Source of the DNA: Rhodococcus phenolicus
GTDB lineage: Bacteria > Actinomycetota > Actinomycetes > Mycobacteriales > Mycobacteriaceae
Reading direction: 5' to 3'
DNA: 64,000 nucleotides
Assembly (NCBI RefSeq): GCF_001646785.1
Contig: NZ_LRRH01000024.1
Span: 1 to 64,000 of the forward strand
A program made the translations under genes and the position numbers. Shown here piece after piece: positions 49,760 to 57,325 of the stretch (position 1 is the stretch's first letter; every line of letters starts with the position of its first letter). The notes under the pieces were generated by a model. It had not been told where the DNA came from and ran no database searches. It worked only from the letters and a program-made list of their open reading frames with translations.

Positions 49760-49765
49760 TAGAGT
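49760..49765 (+). promoter_or_regulatory. -10 box for a leaderless ybaK transcript
   Basis: TAGAGT fits TANNNT and ends seven bases before ATG 49773. No ribosome binding site lies between. Confidence 0.5.
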
Positions 49766-49772
49766 GGTCGCC

Positions 49773-50270
49773 ATGGCCTCGACGTCCACCCCCGCCACGA
49801 AACTGCTCACCCGCGAGAAGGTGCCGCACCGCGTGCACGAGTACGACCACGACGCGCGCGCCGCGTCGTACGGCACCGAGGCCGTCGACGTGCTCGGTGA
49901 GCGGCTCGGCGTCGCACCGGGGCAGATCTTCAAGACGCTGGTGGTGAAGTTGTCCGACGGCAAACTCGCGGTCGCGGTGATCCCGGTGCCGTCGAAGCTC
50001 TCGTTCAAGGCCGCTGCGGGCGCCCTGTCCGGCGGCAAGGCCGTGATGGCCGAGCGTGCCGACGCCGAACGCGCGACGGGGTACGTGCTCGGCGGGATCT
50101 CCCCGCTCGGCCAGCGCAGCCGGTTGCGCACCGTCGTCGATGTGTCCGCTCAGGACTGGGGGCAGGTGCTGTGCAGCGCCGGCCGCCGCGGACTGGAGAT
50201 CGAACTGGCCCCGGCGGATCTGATTCGCCTCACCGGCGCCGTCGTCGCCCCGATCACCGCGGGGCCGTAG
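49773..50270 (+). CDS. YbaK/EbsC-type Cys-tRNA(Pro) deacylase
   Basis: A 165-residue aminoacyl-tRNA editing domain protein. The conserved lysine lies in GQIFKTLVVK, with SYGTEAVDVLG before it and YVLGGISPLGQ as the family-typical glycine segment. It hydrolyses mischarged Cys-tRNA(Pro) in trans. ATG 49773 follows a leaderless -10 box. It is divergent from sigH. The 253 bases after it contain operator sequences of the next operon and no other gene. Confidence 0.92.
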   Translation: MASTSTPATKLLTREKVPHRVHEYDHDARAASYGTEAVDVLGERLGVAPGQIFKTLVVKLSDGKLAVAVIPVPSKLSFKAAAGALSGGKAVMAERADAERATGYVLGGISPLGQRSRLRTVVDVSAQDWGQVLCSAGRRGLEIELAPADLIRLTGAVVAPITAGP

Positions 50271-50416: not shown

Positions 50417-50470
50417 TTGACACCTTCGGATAGTGAATCTCCGTTCATAGGCAGTGAAGCACTATTCACT
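50417..50470 (+). promoter_or_regulatory. Promoter and tandem operators of the alicyclic acid operon
   Basis: TTGACA (50417-50422) is a perfect -35 box. Downstream are two related palindromes: AGTGAA-N6-TTCA (50432-50447, incomplete right arm) and AGTGAA-N6-TTCACT (50453-50470, perfect). They are 21 bases apart, two DNA turns on one face. A clear -10 box is not seen. They are probably bound by the TetR regulator at the operon end. Confidence 0.6.
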
Positions 50471-50523
50471 TCTCATGAGCGAAGCCTCACCATTCCGGTA
50501 TCCGAGCCGACGAGGAGTCACCA

Positions 50524-51318
50524 ATGTCCGAATTCGACGACATCACCTACGAAATCGACGAACGCGCCGCGATCATCACGATCAACCGTCCCGAGCGCTA
50601 CAACGCCTTCCGCGGCAAGACGGTCGAAGAACTGATCAAGGCCTTCCGCTGTGCCTGGGCGGACAGCCGCGTCTCCACCGTGATCCTCACGGGCGCGGGC
50701 GAGAAGGCGTTCTGCACGGGCGGTGACGTCAAGCAGCGCGCCGAAACCGGCGACTACGGCCCCACCGAGTCCGGAATGTTCGAGATCGGCTACCTCCACA
50801 AGCTGATTCGCGACATCCCCAAGCCGGTCATCGCCGCGGTCAACGGGGTCGCCGTCGGCGGCGGACACGTCCTGCACGTGCTGTGCGACCTGACCATCGC
50901 CTCCGAAACCGCCAAGTTCGGGCAGGCCGGCCCGAAGGTCGGATCGTTCGACGCCGGCTTCGGCTCCGCCTTCCTCGCCCGCGTCGTCGGCGAGAAGCGC
51001 GCCCGCGAGATCTGGTACCTGTGCCGCCAGTACGACGCCCACACCGCCGAGCGCTGGGGCCTGGTCAACTGGGTCGTCCCGGCCGACCGGCTGCTGGACG
51101 AGGCCAAGGCCGTCGCCGCCGAGATCGCCGAGAAGAGCCCGACCGCAATCAAATTCCTCAAGCAGTCCTTCAACGCCGACACCGACCATCAAGCCGGCCT
51201 GAGCAACCTCGCGATGTCCGCCCTCGACCTGTTCGGCAAGTCCGACGAGGGCCTCGAAGGCGCGAAGGCCTTCGCGGAGAAGCGGCCCGCCGAGTTCGGC
51301 AAGTTCGTCAAGGCCTGA
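50524..51318 (+). CDS. 2-ketocyclohexanecarboxyl-CoA hydrolase (BadI-like)
   Basis: A 264-residue crotonase-fold enzyme of the BadI/MenB group. BadI-type features are EELIKAFRCAWADSRV, ESGMFEIGYLHKLIRD, GGGHVLHVLCDLTIA and GPKVGSFDAGFGSAFLARVVGEKRAREIWYL. BadI opens the ring of 2-ketocyclohexane-1-carboxyl-CoA to give pimeloyl-CoA. MenB is the close alternative, but no menaquinone genes are near and the neighbours supply the preceding steps. ATG 50524 has GAGGAG upstream. It is the first gene of a six-gene operon. Confidence 0.85.
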   Translation: MSEFDDITYEIDERAAIITINRPERYNAFRGKTVEELIKAFRCAWADSRVSTVILTGAGEKAFCTGGDVKQRAETGDYGPTESGMFEIGYLHKLIRDIPKPVIAAVNGVAVGGGHVLHVLCDLTIASETAKFGQAGPKVGSFDAGFGSAFLARVVGEKRAREIWYLCRQYDAHTAERWGLVNWVVPADRLLDEAKAVAAEIAEKSPTAIKFLKQSFNADTDHQAGLSNLAMSALDLFGKSDEGLEGAKAFAEKRPAEFGKFVKA

Positions 51319-51351
51319 CCCACCCGACCGAGCCGAAAGGGCATCGACACC

Positions 51352-52086
51352 ATGAGCACCACCATCGCGCTGGTCACCGGGGCCGGCTCCGGGATCGGCA
51401 AGGCCATCGCACTCGCCTTCGCCGGCCGGGGCGACCGCGTCGTCGCCGCCGACCTCGACATCGCCGCCGCCGAGGCGACCGCCAAGGAATTTCCCGACCT
51501 CGTCACCGCGCTGCCGGTCGACGTCGCCGATCGCTCCCAGGTCGACGCGCTGCGCGAGCGCACGGTCGCCGAGGTCGGCGTCCCGAACGTCGTCGTCAAC
51601 GCGGCCGGCTGGGACCGGACCGACCAATTTCTCAATGCCACACCGGAATTCGCCGAGAAGGTGGTTGCCATCAACTATCTCGGCCCGGTGCACGTCTGCA
51701 GCGCCTTCCTCCCCGGCATGATCGAGGCGGGCAACGGCGGCCGCGTGATCAACCTCGCCTCGGACGCCGGCCGCGTGGGCAGCTCGGGCGAGTCCATCTA
51801 CGCCGGAGCCAAGGGCGGCGTCATCGCCCTCACCAAGTCGCTGGCCCGCGAGATGGCCCGGCACGGCATCTCCGTCAACTGCGTGTGCCCCGGCCCTACC
51901 GACACCCCGCTGTTCCAGGCACAGGACGAGAAGCTCAAGGCCGCACTGATCAAGGCAATTCCGTTCCGCCGGCTCGCCCGACCCGACGAGGTCGCGGCGC
52001 CGGTGCTGTTCTTCGCGTCGGAGTCCGCGTCGTTCATCACCGGCCAGGTGATCAGCGTCAGCGGCGGTCTCACCATGGCCGGTTGA
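51352..52086 (+). CDS. 2-hydroxycyclohexanecarboxyl-CoA dehydrogenase (BadH-like SDR)
   Basis: A 244-residue classical SDR. It has GAGSGIGKAIA for NAD binding, VVNAAGWDRTDQFLNATPEF, a Ser (NLASDAGRVGSSGES) and the YAGAK catalytic pair. The NAAGWD stretch is typical of BadH. It oxidises 2-hydroxycyclohexanecarboxyl-CoA to the 2-keto form, the substrate of the upstream BadI-like enzyme. A FabG-type reductase is the alternative without context. It lies 33 bases after the BadI-like gene with GAAAGG upstream. Confidence 0.85.
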   Translation: MSTTIALVTGAGSGIGKAIALAFAGRGDRVVAADLDIAAAEATAKEFPDLVTALPVDVADRSQVDALRERTVAEVGVPNVVVNAAGWDRTDQFLNATPEFAEKVVAINYLGPVHVCSAFLPGMIEAGNGGRVINLASDAGRVGSSGESIYAGAKGGVIALTKSLAREMARHGISVNCVCPGPTDTPLFQAQDEKLKAALIKAIPFRRLARPDEVAAPVLFFASESASFITGQVISVSGGLTMAG

Positions 52087-52111
52087 GGCCGGGATCAGGA
52101 GGACGGGCACA

Positions 52112-53782
52112 ATGAGCGAGTCGTACAACCCCCGGGCCTACCGGGAGTTCTTCGAGAACGATTTCACGTATCTCAACGGCTTCCGCCGCAACATCGGGCG
52201 TTTCGGGAACCGGGTCGCCGTCAGCGACCCGGACACCGGGAAGCAGTGGACCTACGCCCAGCTCGGCGAACGGGTCGACCGCATCGCAACCGGCCTCGCG
52301 GACGCCGGGATACGCGCCGGGGACGTCGTCGCCTACCAGTTGTTCAACGGAGTCGAATTCGCCGAGCTCTATCTCGCGACGCAGGCCGCAGGCGCGGTGG
52401 GCTCACCGGTGAACCATCGCCTCGCCGCAGGCGAGACGGCGTTCGTCCTGGACAAGAGCGCCCCGGCGGTGTTCGTCTACGACACCGAACTCACCGTCCC
52501 GGTGCGGGAGGCACTGCGTCTCGCACTGCACACCCCGAAGCTGATCGTCGCCGTCGGTGACGGCGACCCGGTCGAGGTCCCCGGCACCACGGTGATCCAC
52601 TACCGGTCTCTGGCCGCCGACCGCATCGCCCTGCCGCCACTGCACCGCACGGTGTGGGACGAGACCACCCGGCTCTACACCTCCGGCACCACCGGCATGC
52701 CGAAGGGAGTGCCGCTCAACAGCATGATCGAGGTCTTCAGCGCACACGACGTCATCATGCACTTCCCGTTGAGTCCCGAGGACCGGACGCTGAACATGAC
52801 GCCGTGGTTCCACCGGGGTGGTCTCTACTCCGGCGGGCCGAACCCGACGTTCTATGTCGGCGGCGAGGTCGTGCCGCTGCGGACGTTCGACGCGGACCGG
52901 GTGCTCGACCTCGTCGTCGAGCACGGCCTGACGTTCCTCATCGGCGCGCCCACCAACCTCGCGATGCTGGCCTCCGCACAGGAGGCGCACCCGCGGGACC
53001 TGTCGAGCCTGCGCGGCATCGTGACGATGGGCGCCCCGCTGGAGCGGGAGGCGGCGCTGCACTACCAGCAGGTGCTCAACCCGCGGATCTTCAACGGCTA
53101 CGGCAGCACCGAGGGTTTCTGGAACACCTTCCTGCGGCCGTCGGATCTCCCGGCACGGGCCGGCAGTGCGGGCCGCGCCTGCACCGACGACGACGTCCGG
53201 GTGGTCCACGTGTACGCGGACCGGGTCGCCGACCCGGACGACGTGGTCGCCAGGAACGGCCGGGACGTCGGCGAGATCATCGTCCGCTCCCCCAAGTGCG
53301 CCAACGCCTACTTCGACTCCCCCGACCAGGAGAAGGCGAAATTCCATCAGGGGTGGCTGCACATCGGCGATCTCGGCACATGGGACGCCGACGAGTTCGT
53401 CACCGTCGTCGGCCGCAAGGACGACATGCTGGTTTCCGGCGGCGAGAACGTTCACCCGGTGCAGGTGGAGGAGGCGCTCAACGCCCATCCGCAGGTTCGG
53501 GATTCGCTCGTGGTCGGTGTTCCCCACGACACGTGGGGGCGGCTCGTCGTCGCCTACGTCGTCGCCGACGATCCCGTCCCGACGGTCGACGATCTCGACG
53601 CCCACTGCCGTGCCCATCCGATGCTGTCGTCGTTCAAACGACCTCGCGCCTACCGGTTCGTGGAGTCGCTGCCGGTCAGCGCGACGGGCAAGAAACTGCA
53701 CTACCGGGCCACCGACATCGCCGCCGGCGAGTTCGCCGCCGGCCTGTTCGCCACCCCCACCGACGCGCGGATCACCCGGTGA
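52112..53782 (+). CDS. Cyclohexanecarboxylate-CoA ligase (AliA-like)
   Basis: A 556-residue acyl-CoA synthetase of the ANL superfamily. The AMP motif is LYTSGTTGMPKGVP, the aromatic-helix region follows as WFHRGGLYSGGPN, and the C-terminal hinge and catalytic lysine are in GRKDDMLVSGGENVHP and SATGKKLHYR. It would activate cyclohexanecarboxylate to its CoA ester with ATP. The substrate is inferred from the neighbours. ATG 52112 has GGAGG at good spacing. Confidence 0.83.
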   Translation: MSESYNPRAYREFFENDFTYLNGFRRNIGRFGNRVAVSDPDTGKQWTYAQLGERVDRIATGLADAGIRAGDVVAYQLFNGVEFAELYLATQAAGAVGSPVNHRLAAGETAFVLDKSAPAVFVYDTELTVPVREALRLALHTPKLIVAVGDGDPVEVPGTTVIHYRSLAADRIALPPLHRTVWDETTRLYTSGTTGMPKGVPLNSMIEVFSAHDVIMHFPLSPEDRTLNMTPWFHRGGLYSGGPNPTFYVGGEVVPLRTFDADRVLDLVVEHGLTFLIGAPTNLAMLASAQEAHPRDLSSLRGIVTMGAPLEREAALHYQQVLNPRIFNGYGSTEGFWNTFLRPSDLPARAGSAGRACTDDDVRVVHVYADRVADPDDVVARNGRDVGEIIVRSPKCANAYFDSPDQEKAKFHQGWLHIGDLGTWDADEFVTVVGRKDDMLVSGGENVHPVQVEEALNAHPQVRDSLVVGVPHDTWGRLVVAYVVADDPVPTVDDLDAHCRAHPMLSSFKRPRAYRFVESLPVSATGKKLHYRATDIAAGEFAAGLFATPTDARITR

Positions 53783-53813
53783 GCCCCGCCATCCAGGTCA
53801 AGGACGGATCACT

Positions 53814-54962
53814 ATGAACGCCCGACTCGAGTACGACTCCGAACACCGTCAGTTCCGCGAGGTCGCGCGCGGCTTCGTGCGGGACCGGATCACTCCCGTT
53901 CACGAGGACTGGGAACGGGCCGCATGCCTCGACCGGTCCCTGTTCACCGACGCCGGCAAGCTCGGCCTGCTCGGCTTCTCGGTGGAGGAACGGTACGGGG
54001 GCCCCGGCGTGGACGACTTCCGCTACAACGCGATCCTGATCGAGGAGGTCAACCGGGCCGGGAACGCCGCAGCCGGCATCGCGTTCTCCCTGCAGAACGA
54101 TGTGGTGCTGCCGTACCTGACGGACCTGACCGACGACGAGCAGAAGGCCCGCTGGCTGCCCGGCGTCGTGTCCGGCGAGACCGTGCTGGGCATCGCGATG
54201 ACCGAACCCGGCACCGGCAGCGATCTGACCGGCATCCGCACCACCGCGGTGCGCGACGGCGACCACTACGTGGTCGACGGGGCCAAGACGTTCATCTCCA
54301 ACGGGCAGAACGGGGACCTGTTTGTCGTCGCGACCCGCACGTCCGACGATCCGCACAAGGGACTGACCCTGCTCGTCGTCGAGGCCGGCACCGCCGGCTT
54401 CGCCCGGGGGCGCAACCTCGAGAAGATCGGCCTGCACGCTCAGGACACCAGCGAACTGACCTTCACCGGCATGCGCGTACCGGTCGCGAACCGGTTGGGC
54501 GAGGAAGGGCAGGGGTTCTACCAGCTCGTGCACAACCTGCCGCAGGAACGGTTGTCGCTGTCGATCGGCGCGGTCGCCGCCGCCGAAGGGGTGTTCGCGC
54601 AGACCCTCGACTACGTCAAGGAACGCACCGCGTTCGGCACGAAGATCTCCGGTTTCCAGAACACGCAGTTCGTGCTCGCGGAACTGGCCACCGAACTGGA
54701 TCTGGCCCGCACCTTCCTCGACGACTGCATCGCCGAGCATGTCGCCGGTGAGCTGTCCGCGGCCCGCGCCGCCCGACTCAAGTGGTGGACGACCGAACTG
54801 CAGGTGCGTGTGGCGGATCGCTGCCTGCAACTGCACGGCGGCTACGGCTACATGCGCGAGTACGCCGTGTCCCGCGCGTTCGTCGACGCCCGGATCCAGA
54901 CGATCTACGGCGGCACCACCGAGATCATGAAGACGATCGTCGCCAAGGACCTGGGCATCTGA
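53814..54962 (+). CDS. Cyclohexanecarboxyl-CoA dehydrogenase (AliB-like)
   Basis: A 382-residue flavin acyl-CoA dehydrogenase. FAD-binding and substrate segments GIAMTEPGTGSDL and TFISNGQNGD are present, as are RTAFGTKISGFQNTQF and LHGGYGYMREY. At the usual C-terminal catalytic position the motif reads IYGGTTEIM (Gly instead of Glu), so the base is probably Glu258 in AAAEGVF, as in long-chain and isovaleryl enzymes. It would make cyclohex-1-ene-1-carboxyl-CoA. ATG 53814 has AAGGA upstream. The electron acceptor would be ETF, not encoded here. Confidence 0.85.
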   Translation: MNARLEYDSEHRQFREVARGFVRDRITPVHEDWERAACLDRSLFTDAGKLGLLGFSVEERYGGPGVDDFRYNAILIEEVNRAGNAAAGIAFSLQNDVVLPYLTDLTDDEQKARWLPGVVSGETVLGIAMTEPGTGSDLTGIRTTAVRDGDHYVVDGAKTFISNGQNGDLFVVATRTSDDPHKGLTLLVVEAGTAGFARGRNLEKIGLHAQDTSELTFTGMRVPVANRLGEEGQGFYQLVHNLPQERLSLSIGAVAAAEGVFAQTLDYVKERTAFGTKISGFQNTQFVLAELATELDLARTFLDDCIAEHVAGELSAARAARLKWWTTELQVRVADRCLQLHGGYGYMREYAVSRAFVDARIQTIYGGTTEIMKTIVAKDLGI

Positions 54963-55023
54963 GCACTCGTGCCGAATCCGGTTCCGGCACAGTCGGATCC
55001 ATCATCCGAATCCTGGAGGCACC

Positions 55024-55776
55024 ATGAGCGTCGCCGTCGCACGCGAAGACCGCGTCGGCATCATCACCCTCGACCGTCCCGCGGTGAACGCATTCGACGA
55101 GGAGCAGACCGCCCGGTTCGCCGCGGCGGTCGCCGAACTCGGAGCCGACACCGGGATCCGCGCCCTGCTGATCCGCGGTGCGGGACGGCACTTCTGCGGC
55201 GGAGCGGACATCGCCATGATGGCGTCCTGGCGCACCGCCCCCGATCGCCGGGAGCGTCTGGCCCGCTTCGCCTCCGATCTGCAGCACGCACTGCAGGCAC
55301 TGTCGGAGTTGCCCAAGCCCTCGATCGCGGCGATCACCGGCGCCGCGACCGGTGGTGGACTCGAGCTGGCGCTGGCCTGCGACTTCCGGATCGCCGGCGT
55401 GTCCGCCCGGCTGGGGCTGCCGGAGGTCGGGCTCGGGCTGCTGCCCGGCGCCGGGGGCACGCAACGGCTGACCCGGATCGCCGGGCCCGCCGTGGCCACG
55501 CGCCTCGTCCTCGGCGCCGAACTCGTCGACGGCCGCCAGGCGGCGCAACTGGGAATCGTGCACTGGACGGTCGACGGCGATGTCGAGGGCGAGGCGATGC
55601 GGCACGCGCACCGGCTCGCAGCACTTCCGCCTGCCGCCTACGGCGCGGCCAAGCGGTGCATCGCCGCGGCCCGTGGTGCCGACGGTTTCGCCGCCGAGAT
55701 CGACGAGATCGGCCGGCTCATCGAAACCGACGAGACTGCTCGGCTGTTGCACCGCTTCACCATCGGCGCACGCTGA
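55024..55776 (+). CDS. Cyclohex-1-ene-1-carboxyl-CoA hydratase (BadK-like)
   Basis: A 250-residue enoyl-CoA hydratase. The oxyanion-hole segments RGAGRHFCGGADI and AAITGAATGGGLELALACDFRIA are present, and the catalytic glutamates lie in LGLPEVGLGLLPGAGGTQRL. It would hydrate the ring double bond made by the AliB-like enzyme, giving the substrate of the BadH-like enzyme. A general fatty acid hydratase is possible by sequence alone. ATG 55024 has GGAGG at five bases. Confidence 0.8.
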   Translation: MSVAVAREDRVGIITLDRPAVNAFDEEQTARFAAAVAELGADTGIRALLIRGAGRHFCGGADIAMMASWRTAPDRRERLARFASDLQHALQALSELPKPSIAAITGAATGGGLELALACDFRIAGVSARLGLPEVGLGLLPGAGGTQRLTRIAGPAVATRLVLGAELVDGRQAAQLGIVHWTVDGDVEGEAMRHAHRLAALPPAAYGAAKRCIAAARGADGFAAEIDEIGRLIETDETARLLHRFTIGAR

Positions 55777-55803
55777 CGACCGGCCCGTCCGGCGATCGGT
55801 ACT

Positions 55804-55813
55804 GTGAATTCAC
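55804..55813. promoter_or_regulatory. Palindrome in front of the TetR gene of the alicyclic operon
   Basis: GTGAATTCAC is a perfect palindrome made of the same half-sites as the operators at 50432-50470, but without the six-base spacer. It lies 22 bases before the TetR start and may be a weak autoregulatory site. Confidence 0.35.
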
Positions 55814-55835
55814 CCATCGGCGACGAGGAGCACCC

Positions 55836-56504
55836 ATGACCACCCGAGACGACGCGCTGACCGTCGACGAGGCGGTGCGCGCCGTGCGCACCCACTCGCG
55901 TCGCAAGCAGGTGCTCGCGGCCGCGGTGCGACTGATGGAGAAGACCGGGTTCCACCAGATGTCGATGCAGGCTCTCGCCGACGAGGCCGGTGTCAGCGTC
56001 GGGCTGATCTACAAGTACTTCGGCGGCAAGGAGGACGTGCTCCTCGCGACCGTCACCGGCATCCTCGATTCCTTCCGCGACCAGCTCGAGCCGGCGATGG
56101 ACGCCGCCGGCGAGGATCCGGTGGAGCGCCTGGCCGCGGGCATGCGGCGCTACCTCGAGGTCGTCGACGACAACCTCGACGCGGTCGTCCTGACCTACCG
56201 GGAGAGCCGCACCCTCGACCGGGCCGGCCGCGAACGCATCAAGGAACTCGAGGTCGCCACCGCGGCTCCGTTGCGCACCACCCTCGAAGCGGGCATCGCC
56301 ACCGGGGAGTTCAGCCCCGTCGACGTCGACCTCATCGTCTTCGACTTCATGCTTCTCGCGCACGGGTGGGCGCTGAAGCAGTGGCACTTCGGCCCGCTGT
56401 ACACGCTCGACGAGTACACGGCCCGGCAGATCCGGTTCGTGCTGAACTCGATCGTCCCGGCCGGCCGGCGCGAGCGGTACCCGCATCTGCTGAGACCGGC
56501 GTAG
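55836..56504 (+). CDS. TetR family regulator of the alicyclic acid operon
   Basis: A 222-residue TetR protein. The helix-turn-helix includes MSMQALADEAGVSVGLIYKYFGGKEDVLLA. It is the last gene of the operon, 59 bases after the BadK-like gene, with GAGGAG upstream of ATG 55836. It probably represses the operon and is released by a CoA-thioester of the pathway, as is common for such regulators. The ligand is inferred. Confidence 0.88.
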   Translation: MTTRDDALTVDEAVRAVRTHSRRKQVLAAAVRLMEKTGFHQMSMQALADEAGVSVGLIYKYFGGKEDVLLATVTGILDSFRDQLEPAMDAAGEDPVERLAAGMRRYLEVVDDNLDAVVLTYRESRTLDRAGRERIKELEVATAAPLRTTLEAGIATGEFSPVDVDLIVFDFMLLAHGWALKQWHFGPLYTLDEYTARQIRFVLNSIVPAGRRERYPHLLRPA

Positions 56505-56566: not shown

Positions 56567-57325
56567 TCAGAGCAGCGCCATCTGCTCGCCGCTGCCGTCG
56601 TCCGGGGCGAGCAGTTCGGGACCGTTGTTGCGCACACTGTTGACCTTCGGCGACACCCGGCGCACGGTGATCGCCGAGACCGCGTCGAGGCTCGGGCGGA
56701 TCAGATCCGGATGACCGAGGCTGTCCGGGTCCAGCCAGGCGTCCCATCGCTCCGGTGGCAGGATCAGCGGCATCCGCTCGTGGACGTTGCGCAGCTGCGC
56801 GACCGAGTCGGCGGTCAGGATCGTGGTGCTCACCAGCGGCGCCGCGTCCGGGTTCTTCGGATCGTGCCACACCGCCCACAGCCCGGCCGTGCAGATCCGC
56901 GATCCGTCCGCCGGGGACATGTAGTACGGCACCTTCGCGGTCCTGCCGTCCGGTGTCGGTTCGACCTGCCACTCGAACCAGCCGTCCATCGGCACCAGGC
57001 AGCGCTTGTACCGCAGCGACTGCGCGAACGACGGTTTGGTGGCCACCGTCTCGGAGCGGGCGTTGAACAGCGGCGCGCTCTTGCCGATCTCCTTCGCGAA
57101 CGGCGGCACCAGACCCCACCGCATGCGCCGGATCCGGCGTGACACCGGATCGTCGGGATTCTCCCGATCGTGCCGGGCGACGACAGCGAGCACCTGCGTC
57201 GTGGGGGCGACGTTGAAGTTGGCGGCGTCGGGGTCGCCCACCTCACCCCCGCCCGTCTCGTCGATCGCGTCGAGTTCCGCCGCGAGGGTCGCCGGGTCCG
57301 CCGTCGTCGCATACCTGCCGCACAT
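56567..57325 (-). CDS. SOS response-associated peptidase (SRAP/YedK type)
   Basis: A 252-residue SRAP-domain protein (Rv3226c type). Cys2 directly follows the initiator Met (MCGRYA); after Met removal it links covalently to abasic sites in single-stranded DNA. Other conserved parts are FNVAPTTQ, the glutamate of DGWFEW and the histidine of [10 protein letters not shown]. It protects and repairs abasic sites. ATG 57325 must be the start because Cys2 is needed. It is divergent from aroA and convergent with the TetR gene. Confidence 0.95.

Follow-up and report, generated by a model that had tools for sequence, protein, structure and literature searches.

The closest described relative of the locus analyzed here is the chcpca cluster of Rhodococcus aetherivorans BCP1, a member of the same genus, in which the order badI-badH-aliA-(x)-aliB-(x)-badK-tetR ends with a TetR gene (Presentato et al. 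2018, PMC5906575). According to that paper, cyclohexanecarboxylate raises expression of the catabolic genes 70- to 290-fold and cyclopentanecarboxylate raises it 180- to 800-fold, whereas the tetR-like genes are upregulated on cyclohexanecarboxylate and not on cyclopentanecarboxylate, a pattern that simple shared repression does not explain. Gram-positive bad-ali clusters, some of them without badK, are also reported for Rhodococcus rhodochrous, jostii, opacus, and pyridinivorans (PMC9795900); the bad-ali section of that article gives an operator, CAAN4TTG, recognized by the MarR-type BadR, for Gram-negatives only. Proteobacterial bad-ali clusters (Rhodopseudomonas palustris and Aromatoleum sp. 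CIB) were represented in our comparisons by three annotated copies (L150, L157, and L206), and MenB, the DHNA-CoA synthase, was included as a member of the same crotonase subfamily as BadI.

The window, a stretch of 64,000 nucleotides, derives from a Rhodococcus genome near R. zopfii. Six open reading frames follow one another on the forward strand, badI (50524–51318), badH (51352–52086), aliA (52112–53782), aliB (53814–54962), badK (55024–55776), and tetR (55836–56504), with intergenic gaps of 33, 25, 31, 61, and 59 bases; the starts of aliB and tetR were taken from reading the sequence. In gene order, the Pfam domains are those of a crotonase, a short-chain dehydrogenase (SDR), an AMP-binding ligase, an acyl-CoA dehydrogenase, a second crotonase, and a TetR protein. 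Coordinates and domains both agree with an earlier note on this DNA, which had described six co-directional genes with gaps of 25–61 bases and had placed them in these enzyme and regulator families. The one-direction order badI-badH-aliA-aliB(-badK)-tetR is also that of chcpca and the Gram-positive bad-ali clusters, by comparison with Table 2 of PMC5906575. Compared with chcpca, two genes are missing from the window, namely that for glutaryl-CoA dehydrogenase and the first tetR, and the operon sits between ybaK and a SRAP-type gene; the BCP1 order itself recurs in genome G001. The cluster is known in kind, since a near-identical, ring-acid-induced order has been published for BCP1 (PMC5906575), and the gene order and built-in regulator, which the earlier note had considered special, are ordinary because both are already described for Rhodococcus in the main text of PMC5906575 and the bad-ali section of PMC9795900.

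The upstream flank of the operon is ybaK/ebsC (49764–50270, forward strand; NCBIfam TIGR00011, 157.6 bits against a curated cut-off of 153.25). Downstream lie a convergent gene (56570–57325, reverse strand) and one further gene, which, from their sequences, are probably a SRAP-type gene and aroA. Judged by gene order in the genus loci L052–L069, the 3′ side of ybaK has no insert in 15 of 18 genus genomes and carries the operon in the other three, the window's genome included; ybaK adjoins badI only in G000, G014, and G017. The proposal that the operon is an insertion behind ybaK is borne out by this comparison.

We consider it likely that the operon converts cyclohexanecarboxylate to pimeloyl-CoA and that its TetR protein acts as a repressor at tandem sites spaced 21 bp apart, from which it would be released upon binding a CoA ester of the pathway. 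The CoA ligase would activate cyclohexanecarboxylate, the acyl-CoA dehydrogenase, which is of the long-chain/branched type, would form the 1-ene, the hydratase would add water, the SDR would oxidize the 2-hydroxyl, and the MenB/BadI-family hydrolase would open the ring by a reverse Dieckmann reaction to yield pimeloyl-CoA. Such a β-oxidation-like route would itself need no oxygen, and close alicyclic acids may also be substrates.

The proposed repressor sites lie in the badI promoter. A putative −35 box, TTGACA (50417–50422, forward strand), was recognized by reading the sequence and is conserved in related loci; because a strict promoter scan returned no full promoter at badI, the −10 region was placed at about 50440–50445 from its position in relatives. 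A strict terminator scan returned nothing. Over this putative −10 region and the start, the pattern TGAAN6TTCA is repeated every 21 bp: putative operator 1, TGAATCTCCGTTCA (50434–50447), overlaps the −10 region, putative operator 2, TGAAGCACTATTCA (50455–50468), lies 21 bp downstream, and a degenerate putative operator 3 with two mismatches (50476–50489) follows after another 21 bp. The TetR repressor would occupy two or three of these sites, and a spacing of 21 bp, two helical turns, would put them on the same face. The zero-mismatch tandem pair occurs at badI only in the whole 6.28-Mb genome, whereas a single 16-mer matches at five other genomic places (one for the reversed control). We found no published report of the tandem operator in the open-access literature, the TetR and Gram-positive passages of PMC9795900 included, and the terms “operator,” “palindrom,” and “inverted repeat” are absent from the main text of PMC5906575.

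The operator was found at badI in all 12 of the 18 genus genomes whose badI reaches at least 90%; the other six gave no match. Among type-A loci, 23 of 27 contain it within the 300 bp before badI at two mismatches or fewer, compared with 0 of 2700 shuffles. Thirty-four pairs (34) are 21 bp apart, and no other distance between 14 and 40 has more than 5. Across the family, aliA was detected at E 1e-160 or better in 23 of 201 genomes, 22 of which have a tandem match somewhere. This match is at badI in the 10 aliA-bearing Rhodococcus genomes; in seven others (G043, G044, G054, G103, G160, G169, and G178), a listed match is located 1.6–1.8 kb upstream of aliA, where the start of badI is expected. 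A tandem match is also present in G040, G057, G091, and G199, its place not being among the matches listed, and in G128 it is on a different contig from aliA; G081 has aliA and no tandem match. Tandem matches occur as well in 49 of 178 genomes without aliA, and the pattern at two mismatches is therefore not specific by itself.

Each enzyme scores below the curated cut-off of the model that corresponds to its proposed role. For the BadH-like protein, a predicted 2-hydroxycyclohexanecarboxyl-CoA dehydrogenase, the BadH model TIGR03206 is nevertheless the best of all models (246.5 bits; cut-off 431.2), and the protein is 46–48% identical to the SDR/BadH encoded beside annotated badI in L150 and L157. 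The ligase proposed for the AliA role is 27–28% identical to annotated AliA, no cyclohexanecarboxylate ligase model appears among the 25 of 106 NCBIfam matches listed for it, and the dehydrogenase proposed for the AliB role scores 205.8 bits on TIGR03207 (AliB; cut-off 575.35), with other models higher. Identity of the pair to the proteobacterial AliA and AliB is 27–32% overall, and orthology to these enzymes was rejected on this basis. The earlier proposal of an AliA-AliB-BadK-BadH-BadI route therefore holds as a reading of the pathway and not as the orthology that its names imply for the first two enzymes; a comparison with annotated proteobacterial enzymes, of the kind that it suggested, favors BadI (57%) and BadH, which are clearly related, and goes against AliA and AliB. 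The dehydrogenase has Glu245 within PQERL and Gly366 within IYGGT, and the BadK-like enoyl-CoA hydratase retains Glu114 and Glu134, all four being residues with expected roles in these families. BadK is an optional component: among type-A loci, badK lies within the cluster only in the window, L047, L041, and L072, and most related clusters lack it, that of R. zopfii among them.

The BadI-like protein is a predicted ring-opening 2-ketocyclohexanecarboxyl-CoA hydrolase. It scores 323.9 bits on the BadI model TIGR03210, under the curated cut-off of 467.6, whereas the annotated proteobacterial BadI proteins of L150 and L157, to which it is 57% identical, reach 491 and 546.7 bits. Its top NCBIfam score is from a MenB model (342 bits; cut-off 380), two further MenB models give 322.4 (342.7) and 245.3 (378) bits, and no curated cut-off is reached. 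Ser141 and Asp143 are equivalent to MenB Ser161 and Asp163, a pair found in all 54 of the actinobacterial cluster relatives, which were chosen by gene order, and the equivalent of MenB Tyr97 is retained. The position of Tyr258, which together with Tyr97 has a role in MenB discussed in PMC3637252, is occupied by Gly238 in the window and lacks Tyr in 54 of 54 relatives; Tyr is found there in MenB and in all six BadI proteins annotated as such from proteobacteria. The BadI of the proteobacterial bad-ali clusters reads GSVDP where the window protein reads GSFDA. Within a rewritten loop region, ring-contact residues are also changed in 54 of 54 (Leu106 to Phe86 and Leu109 to Gly89), a pairing that is less sure because the loop aligns with gaps.

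The earlier note had held that a best match to MenB would count against a BadI function. By score this is formally the case (342 versus 324 bits, both below cut-off), but the result says little, given that a pair of BadI proteins annotated in proteobacteria score alike on the same MenB model (334 and 342 bits) and that tree and active site point outside MenB. That the protein is a second naphthoate synthase, with the remaining genes serving ordinary fatty acid oxidation, would fit the ten nearest solved sequences, all MenB or naphthoate synthase, and plasmid records that call its relatives MenB or enoyl-CoA hydratase, and also BadI (among the 40 of 1379 records listed). Yet the genome already has a MenB-type gene elsewhere (contig C23, 47% identity) that clusters with its counterparts from other genomes of the genus. 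The tree separates the BadI-like protein from the MenB group (100/99), although it carries a program warning of long branches meeting between the MenB and BadI groups. With Tyr258 lost and the ring-contacting residues different, we rejected the MenB identity and regard this explanation as very improbable. A less remote, though still doubtful, alternative is that the main substrates are other or wider ring acids, such as cyclopentanecarboxylate, substituted cyclohexane acids, or terpene ring acids, with cyclohexanecarboxylate one of several. The dissimilarity of AliA and AliB to the annotated proteobacterial enzymes speaks for it, as do the greater induction of the BCP1 cluster with cyclopentanecarboxylate (PMC5906575), a badKHI cluster without aliAB for which monoterpene degradation has been suggested in the bad-ali section of PMC9795900, and the fact that in other actinobacteria BadI relatives of about 80% adjoin ligases and dehydrogenases of quite another type. 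However, R. opacus R7 has the cluster and, unlike BCP1, reportedly does not grow on cyclopentanecarboxylate (PMC4591350), and the gene set fits all five steps for a six-ring acid.

The regulator has TetR domains only, an N-terminal helix-turn-helix and an all-helical ligand domain (Pfam TetR_N and TetR_C_24), in contrast to the MarR regulator of the proteobacterial clusters. Its structure model (pLDDT 90.9) suggests a resemblance to the acyl-CoA-binding regulators AibR (isovaleryl-CoA), FadR, and KstR2, which are among its structural neighbors; other high-ranking neighbors are DarR (c-di-AMP) and RutR (uracil), and the fold therefore leaves the ligand unfixed. Over the best 80 of the loci listed, the tandem pair tracks the TetR subfamily: a 21-bp pair is present in 25 of the 35 loci whose TetR shows 35% identity or more and in 3 of 45 others, counts that are not independent because the loci are related. 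Ten of the 35 TetR-bearing loci lack the pair, and the 3 of 45 have one without a recognized TetR of the same kind. In R. yananensis (L073/L048), a degenerate pair is present and no TetR was found in the locus, as might be expected if another regulator bound the repeats. We nevertheless think it improbable that this is so or that TetR is an activator, given the tracking, the seven residues of the DNA-binding region that are invariant in 28 aligned regulators (Ser54, Val55, Gly56, Leu57, Tyr59, Tyr61, and Lys65), and the placement of the pair between divergent tetR and badI (L093, L120, and L129) or ahead of a tetR that precedes badI (L080, L091, L099, L101, L103, L105, L108, and L112).

With repression by TetR as the preferred reading, the evenly spaced repeats, which recur next to clusters of this kind across many related bacteria, appear to be the predicted switch, and a testable regulatory prediction follows, namely a single operator array in the genome tied to one TetR subfamily. 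The chances seem to us about even that these elements form an alicyclic-acid module of Actinomycetota's own, consisting of a Tyr258-less hydrolase family distinct from MenB and classical BadI, BadH, varying ligases and dehydrogenases, and one TetR subfamily reading the 21-bp TGAAN6TTCA operator. If so, actinobacterial ring opening would run without the tyrosine kept by MenB and classical BadI. The sequence signature separates actinobacterial ring hydrolases from MenB, the name that some database records give them, and the operon adds one Rhodococcus to the known group potentially degrading naphthenic-type acids.

In G001, extra sites lie ahead of two genes adjoining the cluster, one for an MFS transporter and one for an acyl-CoA dehydrogenase, in each case about 75 bp from the inferred start; the best model for the transporter is the aromatic acid/H+ symporter family (265 bits; cut-off 418.55). 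Relatives of this transporter (70%, contig C184) and of the G001 glutaryl-CoA dehydrogenase (69% on C222 and 65% on C229) exist in the window genome, and none of these three contigs has an operator match. A wider regulon in the window genome was rejected, since no second tandem site occurs elsewhere in the 6.28 Mb at up to two mismatches. Ahead of tetR, GTGAATTCAC (55804–55813) was noted on reading the sequence and is, with low confidence, a possible degenerate operator; full 14-bp sites occupy this position in several Gordonia loci and in R. opacus and R. koreensis loci.

The operon at 50524..56504 on the plus strand comprises six co-directional genes (badI, badH, aliA, aliB, badK, and tetR) with intergenic gaps of 33, 25, 31, 61, and 59 bases. 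Their Pfam domains are, in gene order, a crotonase, a short-chain dehydrogenase, an AMP-binding ligase, an acyl-CoA dehydrogenase, a second crotonase, and a TetR domain, so that positions, direction, and domains bear out the operon proposed in the earlier note. Its G+C content does not depart from that of the surrounding DNA in the window, which is part of contig C104 of the 6.28-Mb genome.

Related clusters have been published. The cluster of Rhodococcus aetherivorans BCP1 is described as running badI, badH, aliA, glutaryl-CoA dehydrogenase, aliB, tetR, badK, tetR, with strong induction of the catabolic genes on cyclohexane- and cyclopentanecarboxylate and with products 27–53% similar to the Rhodopseudomonas palustris bad/ali proteins (PMC5906575). 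The region is reported earlier for BCP1, R. opacus R7, and R. jostii RHA1 (PMC4591350), and Gram-positive bad-ali clusters are said to contain a TetR-like gene, usually co-directional, and in some cases to lack badK (PMC9795900, 2022). The operon is real and the earlier note was right in outline, but it is largely ordinary, being a further Rhodococcus cyclohexanecarboxylate cluster. The added value lies in an operator code of the cluster and a tyrosine-less hydrolase signature, both predicted from sequence comparison. The closest named match to the window BadI, among the best 80 of at least 562 confirmed relatives, is that of R. zopfii (94%). No badK match was found between aliB and tetR in the R. 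zopfii cluster (L039/L070; about 8600–8860 of L039), where the hydratase step must therefore come from elsewhere; the window and G014, another genome of the genus, have badK.

All 18 genomes of the genus, including the window's own, contain ybaK, which is directly followed by SRAP and aroA in 13. In the window genome, G014, and G017, badI lies directly 3' of ybaK, and the remaining operon, SRAP, and aroA come next; the insertion claimed in the earlier note thus holds at the level of Rhodococcus (3 of 18 genomes). A badI of at least 90% identity occurs in 12 of the 18 genomes, in nine of them elsewhere and with several different flanks; the flank comparison covered nine loci with a crude ORF picker. 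The position of the operon therefore varies within the genus. Two genomes differ from the 13 other insert-free ones: in G006 (L055), ybaK is followed by aroA and SRAP was not found between them, and in G001 (L056), SRAP gives only a partial match, with aroA behind ybaK.

Compared with the annotated proteobacterial bad-ali clusters on plasmids of Salipiger (L150) and Paraburkholderia (L157), identities are 57% for BadI, 46–48% for BadH, 38–40% for BadK (over part of its length), 31–32% for AliB, and 27–28% for AliA, which indicates that BadH and BadI form the conserved core and that the ligase and dehydrogenase belong to other subfamilies. The solved sequence nearest to AliB is the acyl-CoA dehydrogenase 2pg0 (404 bits), followed by the mitochondrial long-chain acyl-CoA dehydrogenase (344 bits). 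AliB has Gly366 in IYGGT and Glu245 in PQERL, the latter where long-chain and isovaleryl-type acyl-CoA dehydrogenases have their catalytic residue; an enzyme of this type would be well matched to the α-carbon branch of the ring acid. In the alignment, BadK has Glu114 and Glu134, presumably the two hydratase positions.

The earlier note had named best matches to MenB among the results that would refute its reading, and the score of the window BadI indeed slightly favors the MenB model (342 bits) over the BadI model (324 bits), with no equivalog cut-off reached. Two annotated proteobacterial BadI proteins that pass the BadI cut-off nevertheless score 342 and 334 bits on the same MenB model, so the MenB score of the window protein is no argument for MenB. 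In a tree of 111 sequences, a 100/99 branch splits 16 MenB-type rows from the window BadI, which falls with three BadI of proteobacteria and a further 91 rows.

Aligned with Escherichia coli MenB, the window BadI keeps Ser161, Asp163, and Tyr97, whereas Tyr258 is replaced by Gly238. We compared 54 actinobacterial loci chosen by gene order, 26 of type A, to which the window cluster belongs (badI-badH, then aliA and/or aliB relatives from about 70% upward), plus 28 of type B (badH of 46–55%). The Tyr258 equivalent is absent from all 54 (26 T, 16 G, 7 V, 5 A) but present in 17 of 17 MenB and in six of six annotated proteobacterial BadI. Further badH-bearing loci outside this set, such as L111, L122, L123, and L126, likewise lack it. 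The counter-cases are L089, L090, and L125, which retain the tyrosine, corresponding to three of the 97 rows, some identical, that remain of the full set after removal of the 17 MenB, the crotonase L028, and three proteobacterial BadI. These three are actinobacterial-type BadI relatives with no badH match above 37% in their loci. In all 54, the counterparts of the MenB ring-contacting residues Leu106 and Leu109 are Phe86 and Gly89, in a loop where the alignment is gapped. In E. coli MenB, a substrate analogue is described as bonded through its ortho-carboxyl group to Tyr97 and Tyr258 (PMC3637252). Loss of Tyr258 would thus fit a ring hydrolase acting on a substrate without an ortho-carboxyl group, although classical BadI nevertheless retains the tyrosine.

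Upstream of badI, a TTGACA element (50417–50422) precedes three TGAAN6TTCA sites, starting at 50434, 50455, and, with two mismatches, 50476. Two exact single sites were observed in the window versus 0.02 expected. Allowing up to two mismatches, the tandem pattern of two operators at 21-bp spacing occurs at the badI promoter as the sole place in the whole genome (reversed control, none) and at badI in all 12 genus genomes with a badI of at least 90% identity. It is absent from the other six, including G006 with its 65% BadI-like gene. G009 and G011 have additional two-mismatch tandem matches away from badI, and the reversed control gave one match over the 18 genomes, in G014. Among 27 type-A loci (L049 being a truncated contig, and L075, L078, and L106 lacking an aliA match), 23 have the pattern within 300 bp before badI, compared with none in 2700 dinucleotide shuffles of those stretches; it is missing from this interval in L079, L081, L084, and L106, the last showing a one-mismatch pair at the assumed start.

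Spacing and TetR counts refer to 80 named loci, the best 80 of at least 562 confirmed relatives. Counting pairs with no more than one mismatch, 34 are spaced 21 bp apart, and no other spacing in the 14–40 range gives more than five (reversed control, 0). Of the 35 loci that encode a TetR of 35% identity or higher, 25 have the pair, versus 3 of the 45 others (Fisher p about 1e-9, uncorrected for kinship), these three being L142, with a pair far from badI, L118, a truncated contig, and L073, without a recognized TetR. In the R. yananensis cluster (L073/L048), the operator pair is degenerate and the locus has no recognizable TetR. The L118 contig (Rhodococcus sp. JCM 9791) is labeled Cyanobacteriota in the tree, which may point to a mixed or misplaced assembly. 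In eleven type-B loci, the pair stands either before a tetR gene preceding badI (L080, L091, L099, L101, L103, L105, L108, and L112) or, where tetR and badI diverge, in the interval separating them (L093, L120, and L129).

The sites lie on one face of the helix and overlap the inferred −10 element and transcription start, so that TetR dimers bound there would most likely prevent transcription. The predicted TetR model (pLDDT 90.9) resembles AibR with isovaleryl-CoA, FadR, and KstR2; 3him (Rhodococcus RHA1) came first in one search, and high ranks also went to DarR and RutR, whose ligands are different. By analogy with BadR of Aromatoleum, which is described as recognizing cyclohexanecarboxyl-CoA (PMC9795900), the effector is probably a CoA ester of the pathway. 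In G001, two extra one-mismatch tandem operators (L171, 6869–6903 and 8363–8397) lie beside a BCP1-like cluster, some 75 bp ahead of where an acyl-CoA dehydrogenase gene and an MFS transporter gene adjoining it are inferred to start. The best model for the transporter is an aromatic acid/H+ symporter, below cut-off, and the operator before it suggests a regulon that includes uptake in G001. R. opacus and R. koreensis (L076, L077) have a weaker, two-mismatch pair before an acyl-CoA dehydrogenase gene ~1.3 kb upstream of badI. Both tetR-like genes of BCP1 are reported to rise on cyclohexanecarboxylate and not on cyclopentanecarboxylate (PMC5906575), a pattern for which simple shared repression does not account.

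Further BadI-like genes, 64–66% identical, lie in a different cluster in G006 (L050), G014 (L051), and an R. ruber plasmid (L154), with no close aliA or aliB relatives in these clusters. The G006 crotonase L028, about 30 kb from the BadI-like gene on the same contig, groups with E. coli-type MenB. The mobilizable Mycobacterium dioxanotrophicus plasmid NZ_CP020811.1 (L152, 8001–9543) carries a badI-badH pair, 84% and 82% identical to that of the window, behind genes for an aldehyde dehydrogenase, an NDMA-dependent alcohol dehydrogenase, and groEL.
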